Below, one piece after another: positions 52,561 to 56,496 of a stretch of DNA of 64,000 nt (positions are counted from its first letter, which is position 1; each line of letters starts with the position of its first letter). Source of the DNA: an uncultured Acetobacteroides sp. (GTDB taxonomy: Bacteria; Bacteroidota; Bacteroidia; Bacteroidales; ZOR0009); assembly GCF_963678165.1 (NCBI RefSeq), contig NZ_OY782755.1, forward strand, positions 3,601,996-3,665,995. Reading direction: 5' to 3'. Below the pieces are notes generated by a model. That model worked only from the letters and a program-made list of their open reading frames with translations, made no database searches and was not told where the DNA came from. A program made the position numbers and the translations under genes.

Positions 52561-52844
52561 GCGCTTTCGGCTGCCCATTTGTACTACTGTACATCTACAA
52601 GAGTACTTCCGCCTACCCGTTTGTACTCTTGTACATTTACAATAGTACTTTTGCCTGCCCGTTTGTACTCTTGTACATTTACAATAGTACTTCCGCCTAC
52701 CCATTTGTACCGTTGTACATCTACAATAGTACTTTTGCCTGCCCGTTTGTACTCTTGTACATTTACAATAGTACTTCCGCCTACCCATTTGTACCGTTGT
52801 ACATCTACAATAGTACTTCCGCCTACCCGTTTGTACTCTTGTAA
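52561..52844. repeat. 42-bp tandem array with internal GTAC palindromes
   Basis: Unit starts TTTGTAC lie at 52578, 52620, 52662, 52704, 52746, 52788 and 52830, exactly 42 bp apart. Two unit forms alternate in part: one with GTACTCTTGTACATTTACAA and one with GTACCGTTGTACATCTACAA; the end is AGTACTTCCGCCTACC or AGTACTTTTGCCTGCC. Each 42-mer looks like a dimer of diverged 21-mers, because GTACT recurs about 21 bp along. Open frames occur in several registers (longest 125 codons) because the unit is a multiple of three. Confidence 0.95.
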
Positions 52845-53421: not shown

Positions 53422-53429
53422 TATATTTG
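53422..53429 (+). promoter_or_regulatory. -7 promoter element of the TonB_C/radical SAM operon
   Basis: TATATTTG, exact TAnnTTTG, 23 bp before the ATG at 53453. Confidence 0.6.
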
Positions 53430-53452
53430 GCCAATCGGATACCCTGACGAAT

Positions 53453-54028
53453 ATGCAAAACCTTACGGCAACCCTACGGATTAGGCGACTTGAGCTCGCA
53501 GCCTCGGCATACGGCCTGCTGTTTTCGCTCACCCGCAACCGCCGCTTCTTCGACCGAAAAATCAAAACCGGCATCCTGCTGCTCTCGCTGCTGGGCCTGG
53601 CCGCAAGCGCCGAGGGGCAGGCAACGGGCCATCCCACGAAAAAGGCAAAGAGAAGCAAGGCGGCTACCGCCAAAAAGGATACCGCATCGAGCGACGAAGC
53701 CGTGTTCTGCTACGCCGTAGAGATGATGCCCGCGTACAAGGGTGGCACCGACTCGCTGTTCGCCTTCCTAGCGCGCAACACCCGATACCCCCAATCGGGC
53801 ATTGAGAATAAAAAGGAGGGAACGGTTTACGTCCAGTTCACCATAGACTCCCTAGGCCGCGTTGTTAACCCACGAATACTTAAAGGGATTGATCCGGACT
53901 TCGATGCAGAGGCGCTCCGCGTGGTTCGCCTTATGCCGCCATGGATACCAGGAGAACTACTTGGGAAGAAAGCAAACACTGACTATACCATGCCGATAAA
54001 GTTCAGGCTAACCGATGTAAAAAAGTAA
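53453..54028 (+). CDS. TonB_C-domain protein with conserved leader, paralogue 1
   Basis: The 191-aa protein has a 53-residue leader shared with the next two genes: residues 20-40 read YGLLFSLTRNRRFFDRKIK plus TG, then a hydrophobic stretch ILLLSLLGLAAS. Position 53 is Ala, where paralogues 2 and 3 have a lipobox Cys. After a Lys/Ala-rich linker, residues 85-190 form a TonB C-terminal domain (MMPAYKGGTDSLFAFLARNT, EGTVYVQFTIDSLGRVVNP, DAEALRVVRLMPPWIPGE). There is no Pro-rich spanning region as in classical TonB. First gene of a four-gene operon ending in a radical SAM/SPASM enzyme; next start 9 bp downstream. Confidence 0.85.
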   Translation: MQNLTATLRIRRLELAASAYGLLFSLTRNRRFFDRKIKTGILLLSLLGLAASAEGQATGHPTKKAKRSKAATAKKDTASSDEAVFCYAVEMMPAYKGGTDSLFAFLARNTRYPQSGIENKKEGTVYVQFTIDSLGRVVNPRILKGIDPDFDAEALRVVRLMPPWIPGELLGKKANTDYTMPIKFRLTDVKK

Positions 54029-54037
54029 AGGTTGCCC

Positions 54038-54727
54038 ATGAAAAAGATCACCCTCTCCGCCCGCATAAAGGGGCTGCAGCTGCGCTCGCGCTGGTACGGC
54101 CTGCTCTTTGCCCTCACCCGCAACCGCCGCTTCTTCGACCGAAAGATTAAGGCGGGGGTGCTGATGCTATCGCTGCTGAACATGATGGCGAGTTGCGGCA
54201 CGCCACCAACCGGCAAAACGGATACATCGAGAAACTCCGCTAAAAAAGGCACAACCTCAACTCAGCCTACAAGCAAAACGGTGGTAGATAATGATCCTTC
54301 ACACTACGCTAGGCAAGCAAAAATCGGTAGTGCAGCAAAAGAAAGAATCTTTGATGAATCAGAGGTATCATGCTATATGGTGGTAGAAAAAATGCCATCC
54401 TTCCCAGGAGGACAAGAAGCCATGATCAATTTTCTAAACCAGAACACCCAATACCCATCAGCAGCAATAGAGAAAAAGATGGAAGGCACGGTATTCGTAC
54501 AGTTTATTGTTGACTCTACCGGAAAGATAGAGGAGCCCAAGGTTATTCGCAGCGTCTCACCGGAGCTGGATAACGAGGCTCTAAGAGTTGTACGGCTATT
54601 TCCCCACTGGAATCCAGGAATTATGATGGGTGAGAAATTAAGGGTTGGGTATACCATGCCGTTTAAGTTCGTCTTAGAAGAGGCGACCCAGGCAAAAAAA
54701 GATACCACCCAAACAAACCAACGGTAA
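54038..54727 (+). CDS. TonB_C-domain lipoprotein with conserved leader, paralogue 2
   Basis: A 229-aa protein. Leader residues 21-40 are GLLFALTRNRRFFDRKIKAG, then VLMLSLLNMMASC with Cys53 as a candidate lipobox. The first 53 codons are almost identical at DNA level to paralogue 3, while the linker and TonB_C domain differ (MPSFPGGQEAMINFLNQNTQ, EGTVFVQFIVDSTGKIEEPK, NEALRVVRLFPHWNPG). ATG 54038 (MKKITLSARIKG) is used; the frame is open two codons upstream from a TTG. Its stop overlaps the next ATG as TAATG, so the two are translationally coupled. Confidence 0.87.
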   Translation: MKKITLSARIKGLQLRSRWYGLLFALTRNRRFFDRKIKAGVLMLSLLNMMASCGTPPTGKTDTSRNSAKKGTTSTQPTSKTVVDNDPSHYARQAKIGSAAKERIFDESEVSCYMVVEKMPSFPGGQEAMINFLNQNTQYPSAAIEKKMEGTVFVQFIVDSTGKIEEPKVIRSVSPELDNEALRVVRLFPHWNPGIMMGEKLRVGYTMPFKFVLEEATQAKKDTTQTNQR

Positions 54728-55434
54728 TGAAGAGAATCACCCTCTCCGCCCGCATAAAGGGGCTGCAGCTGCGCTCTAACTGGTACGGTCTACTCTTTGC
54801 CCTCACCCGCAACCGCCGCTTCTTCGACCGAAAGATTAAGGCGGGGGTGCTGATACTCTCGCTGCTAAACCTGGTGGCTGGTTGTGGCAACCAAACCAAC
54901 GAAAAGCCTGCCTCATCGCAAAAAGAGCAGTCATCAAAGAGGCTCACAAAAGCAGATACACCCAAAAGCATGGTAAGCAAGGGCATCCCCGTCAAATTCG
55001 CACCACCCCAGATAACCTGCTACGATGTTGAGGTAAAGCAAAACCTAGTACAACCAGACACCACTGATTTGACAGTTGGTTGCTATGCTCCGATTATTGA
55101 AGAAGGGCCATCTGTTTATTCTACGGTTGAAGATATGCCCGAATTCCCCGGAGGAGTAGATGCCATGATGCAGTACATCAAGGAGAGGGCAATCTACCCA
55201 GACTCTCTCGAAGATGATAACATAGTGGGAACCGTATTCGTAAGGATGGTTATCAATAGCAGAGGAAAAATCGAACAGCCAACCATAATCAAGGGCATCA
55301 CTCCCGAAGTCGACTCGGCAGCCCTCCGAATTGTACGTCAAATGCCCCGCTGGGAACCCGGCTGGAAAGAAGGAGTACCCGTTAACGTGTACTATACCAT
55401 CCCCGTTAAGTTCAACCATAAAGTAAACGAATAA
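54727..55434 (+). CDS. TonB_C-domain lipoprotein with conserved leader, paralogue 3
   Basis: A 235-aa protein with the same leader as paralogue 2 (Asn for Arg at position 18) and the lipobox LLNLVAGC (Cys53). The linker (54-135) is Ser/Lys/Pro-rich, and the TonB_C domain follows (MPEFPGGVDAMMQYIKERAI, VGTVFVRMVINSRGKIEQPT, SAALRIVRQMPRWEPGW, YYTIPVKFNHK). The start overlaps paralogue 2's stop. The radical SAM gene begins 3 bp after the stop. Unlike ordinary energy transducers, no ExbB/ExbD partner is nearby. Confidence 0.87.
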   Translation: MKRITLSARIKGLQLRSNWYGLLFALTRNRRFFDRKIKAGVLILSLLNLVAGCGNQTNEKPASSQKEQSSKRLTKADTPKSMVSKGIPVKFAPPQITCYDVEVKQNLVQPDTTDLTVGCYAPIIEEGPSVYSTVEDMPEFPGGVDAMMQYIKERAIYPDSLEDDNIVGTVFVRMVINSRGKIEQPTIIKGITPEVDSAALRIVRQMPRWEPGWKEGVPVNVYYTIPVKFNHKVNE

Positions 55435-55437
55435 CTG

Positions 55438-56451
55438 ATGAAGCTTTCGCTCAACACCATCACCTTCGAGTCGTACTCGGCCTGCAACCTGCGCTGCGTC
55501 TACTGCTACAACACGTGGAAGCGCCCCGAGGGGGATGCCCCCTTCCGCTACTCGCACCGCCAGGCGGTAAAAACGCTTAAGGAGATCTACCGCCAGGCCG
55601 ACATCACCCAGCTGTCGATAACGGGCGGCGAGCCGCTGCTCAACGAGTACGTGGCGGAGCTCATCCTTACGGCCAAGCTAAAAGGGTCGAAGGTGTCCAT
55701 CATCAGCAACGGCAACGGGGTAAAGGATGGCGACTACACGCTATACAGGGATCTGGACGTAGACCTGTTTCTGATGCCGCTTCACGCAGCCTCCTCCAGC
55801 ATTCACGACTCGATGACACAGGTTGAAGGCTCGTGGCAACGCAGCCTCAGCTCTATCACCTCCTGCGCGGAGATGGGCTTCTACGTTGTGCCCGTGGTGG
55901 TGCTAACCCGGCTTAATGCACCTCAGATAGAAGAAACACTGCGCTTCATCAGCAACTTGGGGCTAAAACGGATTATGGTGAACCGCTACAACATCGGAGG
56001 AGCAGGCATCAACCACCAATCGCTGAGCCTCGGCCACGATGAGCTCCGCCAAGCATTCGGGAAGATAAACCGCATCTCGGAGGAGCTAACCCTGAACGTA
56101 TCCTCCAACGTTTGCACGCCGTTTTGCGTGCTCAACCCCGCCGACTACCCCAGCATTGCCTTTGGCGCCTGCAGCCCCGATCCGTTCAGGCGCCCCCTAA
56201 CGGTCGACGTTATGGGCAACCTGCGCACCTGCAACCACTCCCCAATTGTTGCCGGAAATATCTTTAAGGATCGCATTGAGGATATCGTAAATACGCCCTA
56301 CATGAAATCGTGGAACGACACAACACCAACCTTCTGCGAGCAATGCGCAATGTACGCCCAATGCCGCGGAGGATGCAGGGCAGCCTCCGAGCAGCTTGGC
56401 TTAACCCTTCGGCATGTTGATCCCTTAGTTACAATGCAAGAGTCGCTATAA
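55438..56451 (+). CDS. Radical SAM/SPASM-domain enzyme
   Basis: A 337-aa protein. The radical SAM cluster motif is ACNLRCVYCYN (Cys16, Cys20, Cys23); ITGGEPLLNEY is the SAM-binding GGE region. The C-terminal SPASM-type cysteines are in GNLRTCNHSPIVAGNIFK and FCEQCAMYAQCRGGCRAA, which would bind auxiliary [4Fe-4S] clusters. SPASM enzymes commonly modify ribosomally made peptides or proteins. With its start 3 bp after paralogue 3, its substrates could be the shared leader or domains of the three TonB_C proteins (inference). No peptidase, transporter or short precursor peptide gene is seen beside it. Confidence 0.9.
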   Translation: MKLSLNTITFESYSACNLRCVYCYNTWKRPEGDAPFRYSHRQAVKTLKEIYRQADITQLSITGGEPLLNEYVAELILTAKLKGSKVSIISNGNGVKDGDYTLYRDLDVDLFLMPLHAASSSIHDSMTQVEGSWQRSLSSITSCAEMGFYVVPVVVLTRLNAPQIEETLRFISNLGLKRIMVNRYNIGGAGINHQSLSLGHDELRQAFGKINRISEELTLNVSSNVCTPFCVLNPADYPSIAFGACSPDPFRRPLTVDVMGNLRTCNHSPIVAGNIFKDRIEDIVNTPYMKSWNDTTPTFCEQCAMYAQCRGGCRAASEQLGLTLRHVDPLVTMQESL

Positions 56452-56454
56452 ACC

Positions 56455-56496
56455 AAAAAGGGGCTGCCCAACACATGTTGGACAGCCCTTTTTTTT
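56455..56496 (+). terminator. Terminator of the TonB_C/radical SAM operon
   Basis: AAAAAGGGGCTGCCC pairs with GGACAGCCCC across a loop with AACACATGTT, followed by TTTTTTTT. Confidence 0.92.

Follow-up and report, generated by a model that had tools for sequence, protein, structure and literature searches.

The SPASM/Twitch peptide maturases SkfB, CteB, SuiB, ChlB and PqqE, which are radical S-adenosylmethionine (SAM) enzymes, act on dedicated small peptides, and the anaerobic sulfatase-maturating enzymes (anSMEs) oxidise a Cys to an aldehyde on exported sulfatases, at the substrate motif CxPxR. A related concept is given by the DAG-RiPPs (ChrH/DybH family), hybrids of lipoproteins and ribosomally synthesised and post-translationally modified peptides (RiPPs) that are modified by multinuclear non-heme iron-dependent oxidative enzymes (MNIOs) at a C-terminal CPxCGxG motif, independently of a leader. 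Their Cys motif is modified in the cytosol, export by the lipoprotein or signal peptidase I (SPase I) route follows, and the substrates range from peptides to proteins of more than 30 kDa (PMC12636315). Here we describe a locus in a 64,000-nt stretch of DNA from an uncultured Acetobacteroides sp. (the window, to which all positions refer), where three genes for TonB C-terminal domain (TonB_C) proteins with a common leader (P0001–P0003, genes 1–3) precede a gene for a radical SAM/SPASM enzyme (P0004, gene 4; Table 1). We consider it likely that they form a substrate-plus-maturase system for exported proteins, in which the enzyme would recognise the leader in the cytosol and modify a Cys-Tyr (CY) pair, export and leader cleavage coming afterwards.

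P0001, P0002 and P0003 all score above the cut-off of TonB_C (PF03544; membership was judged by PF03544 or TIGR01352 above cut-off), the sole family above cut-off in these proteins. The leader is as the initial annotation had described it, with 53 residues and an invariant GLLF-LTRNRRFFDRKIK; by eye, it ends in a lipobox-like Cys53 in P0002 and P0003 and in an SPase I-like AxA (Ala53) in P0001. That annotation had not mentioned the CY pair, which each of the three proteins has. A fourth leader-TonB_C protein, P0005, lay outside its view; it is encoded about 1.6 Mb from the cluster (G000:C1:2071198-2071896, G000 being the own genome), and no enzyme gene of the P0004 kind was found next to it. 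P0005 also contains CY, while the pair occurs in 0 of the 4 script-readable leaderless TonB_C proteins of the own genome and is likewise missing from a fifth (L014), three weaker TonB_C places having been left out of this comparison. The motifs CxPxR, YGxP and CPxCGxG are each absent from P0001–P0003 and P0005.

Orthologues of P0004 (46–48% identity) were found in four others among 60 genomes, the own genome included, in each case immediately preceded by the genes of one or two small leader proteins. The seven small proteins of these four loci lack TonB_C; a basic box before the hydrophobic stretch and CY are common to all of them. All 12 first proteins have CY, against a mean of 1.26 and a maximum of 6 in shuffled sequences, but these are the proteins in which it was noticed, and the weight rests on the later locus counts. 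For the latter, the best 80 of 130 loci from a scan of named genomes were used (enzyme identity 71–37%). Five have no upstream room; the remaining 75 form 67 groups when their enzymes are clustered at 90% identity and 59 when they are clustered at 80%. The initial annotation had proposed looking for leader proteins beside SPASM enzymes elsewhere, and an adjacent CY protein was indeed found at 75 of the 75 loci, 67 times as the first upstream gene by automatic calling and 8 times on six-frame inspection. As a control, CY occurs in 41 of 337 other called open reading frames (ORFs; 80–300 aa) of the same loci. In each of the eight exceptions this is a leader-CY protein; it is upstream but mis-called in four of them (L101, L103, L107, L120), part of a tandem array in L085, and downstream in L077, L089 and L118. 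The precursor of L080 is cut, with no leader visible.

The constant parts of the precursors were determined in a set of 80 sequences, 75 picked by hand from enzyme loci plus 5 others, with near-duplicates removed and with the array members of L085 (all) and L092 (most) excluded. The only alignment columns conserved to at least 90% are K36, G40, C112 and Y113 (P0002 numbering). CY is present in 79 of the 80 by construction, as rows were chosen for it, but the K (76/80) and the G (77/80) are an independent finding. The distance from this K to CY is 18–94 residues (median 26), a lipobox-like match to a regular expression is found in 57 of the 76 boxed precursors, and the CY context leans to [VIT][TSM]CY[DE][PVT][AVP] (139 sites). 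The candidate pool comprised 104 ORFs in 71 loci with CY and a hydrophobic N-terminus, some of them plainly chance (L116:4799, L097:50). The K...G box is not universal: it is seen in 4 of the 11 CY ORFs of the L085 array, which lies outside the set, and is missing from the CY protein of L136. Five tandem precursors adjoining an enzyme of the family in one genome (G688 contig 210, L211) have Cys-His (CH) instead of Cys-Tyr, and some sandwich-type precursors (L075, L081, L197) have a second CY right at their C-terminal end, which reads NTCYY or NTCYF.

The C-terminal part is variable. TonB_C is present in 23 of the 80 precursors and two CarboxypepD_reg-type models in 2 each; for one member of the common 160–190 aa class, the predicted structure shows a two-helix leader and a beta sandwich. 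Placed on the enzyme tree, with the five loci without upstream DNA excluded, TonB_C (15 of 76 labelled rows) requires 7 gains or losses, at least 5 of them forced by well-supported branches, and the cargo has therefore been exchanged or lost repeatedly. TonB_C is an optional, interchangeable cargo. The suggestion in the initial annotation that TonB-like domains may be modified cargo can be refined accordingly: since the leader box and CY recur rather than TonB_C, the modified site is probably the CY near the start of the domain and not the domain as such.

Short precursors carry one to three CY pairs and occur in tandem arrays, with eleven CY ORFs in L085, six in L092 and seven, six of them short, on contig 13 of G535, a contig other than that of the enzyme. 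Such arrays speak for an alternative in which the small tandem members (about 80–110 aa) serve as RiPP signals or bacteriocins that are secreted or lipidated, the TonB_C versions being domesticated offshoots. We regard this as unlikely, given that full-size proteins with folded domains are numerous among the members and that no transporter, protease or immunity gene recurs in the upstream gene lists read, without a systematic test.

Co-occurrence was analysed in 393 genomes of the order, the same for the enzyme and leader profiles, with a limited number of candidates scored per genome. The enzyme profile at 1e-60 matches 20 genomes (G462 and G682 by fragments). The two leader profiles match 17 and 10 genomes, and their union of 22 consists of all 20 enzyme genomes together with G723 and G516, whose matches lack CY and are chance-like. 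The profile match of G456 is also chance-like, lying in a 404-residue frame of another protein; the true leader-CY protein of this genome adjoins its enzyme (L163, by eye). A credible leader match by profile is therefore present in 19 of the 20 enzyme genomes vs 0 of the 373 others (Fisher p 4e-29 when the two chance-like matches outside the enzyme genomes are counted as real). The 1e-60 line was drawn after the hits had been seen; at 1e-40 the count is 19 of 24, the added genomes G354, G558, G561 and G648 all being without a leader, and two of these 1e-40-only enzymes that were put in the tree (L169 of G354, L166 of G648) fall outside the CY clade. Both profiles were seeded with sequences from around enzyme genes, a part of them in genomes of this same sample, which makes the positive side partly circular, but not the near-absence elsewhere.

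The earlier idea that the leader is tied to the enzyme is borne out by these counts. Leader proteins in the absence of a radical SAM gene, which would have spoken against it, were not common across genomes; in the stricter sense of lacking an adjacent gene they do exist, as P0005 and others show. Leader genes lie far from the enzyme gene on the same contig in G000 and G604, and on other contigs in G028, G535, G517 and G682, the latter being weaker evidence from fragmented assemblies. That such distant genes occur in enzyme-bearing genomes argues for action in trans, and by this pattern the substrates may act in trans. The CY enzyme family is patchy in the order of the window, outliers being found in records whose titles name other phyla, and in a class-wide sampling the enzyme profile at 1e-60 matched 2 of 395 genomes, one being the own genome. 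The outlying records are titled Spirochaetales, Deltaproteobacteria, Spirochaetes, Anaerolineales and Clostridia (L089, L111, L113, L115, L118, L136); leader-CY proteins are seen in L089, L115 and L118 and CY without the box in L136, while L111 and L113 have no upstream DNA. Either transfer or mis-binning would account for them. Among 143 stretches that matched a pattern, no virus-borne version was confirmed.

P0004 has a CxxxCxxC motif at 16–23 and SPASM-region cysteines at 245, 265, 300, 303, 309 and 313, plus C226/C230, and its cysteines are conserved across 33 homologues. It exceeds the Pfam cut-offs of PF04055 (76.1 bits, cut-off 29.5) and PF13186 (26.1 bits, cut-off 21.5). No export signal is apparent. 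No other close enzyme of this kind was found in the own genome, where the next matches are partial, at 25% and 31% identity. No named NCBIfam equivalog was found for it, the best score being 83.4 bits with TIGR04303 (cut-off 400). In an enzyme from a record titled Tannerella (L097:1430-2407) there is an in-frame stop just past CxxxCxxC, and the precursors there look intact.

The guess in the initial annotation that the locus belongs to TIGR04133/TIGR04134 did not survive. P0004 scores 49.3 bits with TIGR04133 (cut-off 425), and no TIGR04133 match at 1e-60 was found in the own genome. For P0001–P0003 no TIGR04134 match was listed at E up to 10, a range in which HMMER filters drop most weak matches; the best TIGR04134 score in the own genome is 20.6 bits (cut-off 39.8), at another place. 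In the enzyme tree, a supported branch separates each of the following from all other rows: the CY enzymes (32 rows), the TIGR04133 enzymes (12), the set near the ‘AMCY’ proteins (3) and two siblings, with supports of 99/97 and 100/100 for the CY and the TIGR04133 enzymes; the tree carries a long-branch warning, and its L112 row has three stops read as X. By these scores and the separate clade, filing under TIGR04133/TIGR04134 was rejected. TIGR04133 is above cut-off in 31 of 149 genomes of the order, and six genomes (G028, G035, G057, G058, G517, G535) have both it and the CY enzyme, as separate genes. The ‘AMCY’ set is a separate radical SAM/SPASM clade (L064:6154-7892, L066:11012-12818, L169) that adjoins proteins in which AMCYxMAMPP or AMCYCPAIPP precedes a CxxC pair; Cys-Tyr thus occurs here too, in a different architecture.

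Some findings would suit other readings than a leader-guided maturase. The best family scores of P0004 are scattered over RiPP and tetrapyrrole enzymes, all far under cut-off, as they might be if the neighbours were unrelated, with ordinary TonB_C lipoproteins next to a radical SAM enzyme whose substrate is a metabolite or cofactor. The adjacency at 75 of 75 loci, together with the co-occurrence across genomes, makes this explanation very improbable. The leaders of genes 2 and 3 differ by only 0.22 synonymous differences per site (pS), vs 0.69 in TonB_C; as their leader DNA is nearly the same, part of the striking conservation stems from recent exchange of the leader module. Leader likeness between these two genes thus appears to be partly recent homogenisation and calls for caution. 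The G+C content of the leaders of genes 1 and 2 (0.60, vs 0.455 in the rest of gene 2; region 53453–54885) would fit such an exchange. Several short array members have CY without the K...G box, and the enzyme of the DAG-RiPPs requires only the C-terminal motif (PMC12636315). These points would suit a leader that is itself a membrane-sorting or retention signal, the enzyme reading the CY core alone and leader conservation reflecting shared descent and exchange of signal modules. We think this rather doubtful in view of the lack of a credible leader match in the enzyme-negative genomes, and because the K...G box is common to quite different leader classes. The initial annotation had found the leader far more conserved than the mature domains; part of this is homogenisation between genes 2 and 3, but in the comparison of gene 1 with genes 2 and 3 the core box is still constrained (0.10–0.11 nonsynonymous differences per site at a pS of 0.35–0.45).

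For the leader-guided system we propose the following course. P0004, presumably cytosolic, would bind the extended N-terminal leader of P0001–P0003, with its K...G box just before the hydrophobic core, and would recognise P0005 in trans. Before export it would modify the Cys-Tyr pair after the leader, or CH in the one genome that has it. The modified proteins would then be exported by Sec, whereupon signal peptidase II would cut the leaders of P0002, P0003 and P0005, with lipidation at Cys53, and SPase I that of P0001. The product would be a modified, mostly membrane-anchored protein with interchangeable C-terminal cargo, here TonB_C.

As to the chemistry, we tentatively suggest an oxidative Cys-centred crosslink, a thioether to a neighbouring residue and possibly to the adjacent aromatic ring, although we would put this at somewhat below even chances. 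It is favoured over an aldehyde or an epimer because the Cys is followed by Tyr or, in a single genome, by His. A thioether crosslink of Cys is also what defines the sactipeptides and ranthipeptides. An aldehyde would be expected of a formylglycine-type maturase, which would oxidise the Cys of CY, the adjacent Tyr or His merely aiding recognition. The shared fold is uninformative on chemistry, but P0001–P0003 and P0005 lack CxPxR, the sulfatase motif does not need the Tyr (or His) that follows the Cys here, and sulfatase_rSAM is outside the 25 best of the 97 families listed for P0004; we hold such a maturase to be improbable. Galactose oxidase has a Cys-Tyr side-chain cofactor and tyrosinase a Cys-His one. 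By analogy, CY and CH might be converted to a Cys-aromatic crosslink, a side-chain cofactor built by a radical SAM enzyme and displayed on membrane-anchored proteins, which we regard as an unlikely version of the proposed crosslink. If true, a crosslink at the foot of TonB-like domains would give an energy-transducing or receptor-binding domain of the envelope a redox or metal-binding group. More generally, a product near the lipid anchor, at the foot of a TonB-type domain, could possibly have a redox, metal or receptor-contact role.

The tight, operon-like cluster of the initial annotation was confirmed in its gene coordinates, in the junctions between the four plus-strand genes (9 bp, a TAATG overlap and 3 bp) and in the terminator, which has a folding energy of −24.5 kcal/mol (z −6.5) that was equalled by 0 of 200 shuffles. 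Its ‘one promoter’ was not supported. A simple sigma70-type scan gave no plus-strand site 5' of gene 1, and the window contains no match to TTTG-N19-21-TAnnTTTG, the Bacteroidota-type pattern; TATATTTG is present at 53422–53429, 5' of gene 1. About 600 bp upstream of the operon, at 52564–52843, lies a tandem array with a 42/84-bp unit (3.3 copies of 84 bp, 92% matches).

Table 1. Features of the gene cluster, in positions of the 64,000-nt window.
Feature	Position	Strand	Remarks
Gene 1, substrate protein 1 (P0001, 191 aa)	53453..54028	+	leader, Ala53, Cys86-Tyr87, TonB_C residues 109-186
Gene 2, substrate protein 2 (P0002, 229 aa)	54038..54727	+	leader, lipobox Cys53, Cys112-Tyr113, TonB_C residues 136-213
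Gene 3, substrate protein 3 (P0003, 235 aa)	54727..55434	+	leader, lipobox Cys53, CY 98-99 and 119-120, TonB_C residues 156-230
Gene 4, radical SAM/SPASM enzyme P0004 (337 aa)	55438..56451	+	
Leader of protein 1 (53 aa), K36-x3-G40 box	53453..53611	+	
Leader of protein 2 (53 aa), K36-x3-G40 box	54038..54196	+	
Leader of protein 3 (53 aa), K36-x3-G40 box	54727..54885	+	
CY codons of protein 1, proposed modification site	53708..53713	+	motif recurs in relatives
CY codons of protein 2, proposed modification site	54371..54376	+	
First CY codons of protein 3, proposed modification site	55018..55023	+	
Second CY codons of protein 3, proposed modification site	55081..55086	+	
Intrinsic terminator hairpin with U-run	about 56455..56494	+	folding energy vs shuffles

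The locus suggests that a family of radical SAM maturases for proteins has gone unannotated, whose members act, it seems, on exported proteins and not on dedicated peptides. Among the matches listed in searches of the open-licence PMC literature, none describes CY or TonB_C lipoproteins with a radical SAM enzyme as their partner, and the pairing is apparently undescribed. Enzyme, recognition element and target residues are proposed together, which makes the chemistry directly testable. If true, the idea of RiPP-lipoprotein hybrids would be extended from MNIOs to radical SAM enzymes, with substrates whose N-terminal leader serves both for guidance and as signal peptide, and with TonB-type domains as carriers of such a modification.

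Among known systems, TIGR04133/TIGR04134 has the same order, with one or more lipoprotein genes directly before one SPASM enzyme and a short motif near the lipid anchor, but it differs in its enzymes, as set out above, and in their partners. TIGR04134-type partners have YGxP and, by eye, no K...G box, whereas P0001–P0003 and P0005 have CY and the long leader; partners were read in plus-strand genes only, 5 of 12 loci being uninformative. In an Alistipes record (L120:4481-9020), two enzyme-lipoprotein pairs stand next to each other: after a CY precursor and its enzyme come three TIGR04134-like lipoproteins, of which one exceeds the cut-off, and an enzyme of TIGR04133 (574.5 bits). TIGR04134 members above cut-off also adjoin the CY enzyme in L116 and L129. 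P0004 has the fold and cluster architecture of SkfB, CteB, SuiB, ChlB and PqqE, but it has no leader-binding extension at its N-terminus, and the proteins presumed to be its substrates are exported. The anSMEs differ in their motif and in that no sulfatase is present here. With the TonB energy transducer, P0001–P0003 share the C-terminal domain; they differ from it in having a lipoprotein- or SPase I-type leader end in place of a stable inner-membrane anchor, an extended leader, and CY. The closest concept, by analogy, is that of the DAG-RiPP hybrids. Cytosolic modification of a Cys motif ahead of lipoprotein or SPase I export is common to them and to the scheme proposed here, the lipobox that characterises them being found in P0002 and P0003 (Cys53) and not in P0001; an MNIO and a C-terminal CPxCGxG there contrast with a radical SAM enzyme and no such motif here, and their leader-independence with an N-terminal leader that is, besides CY, the most conserved part of the precursors (PMC12636315).

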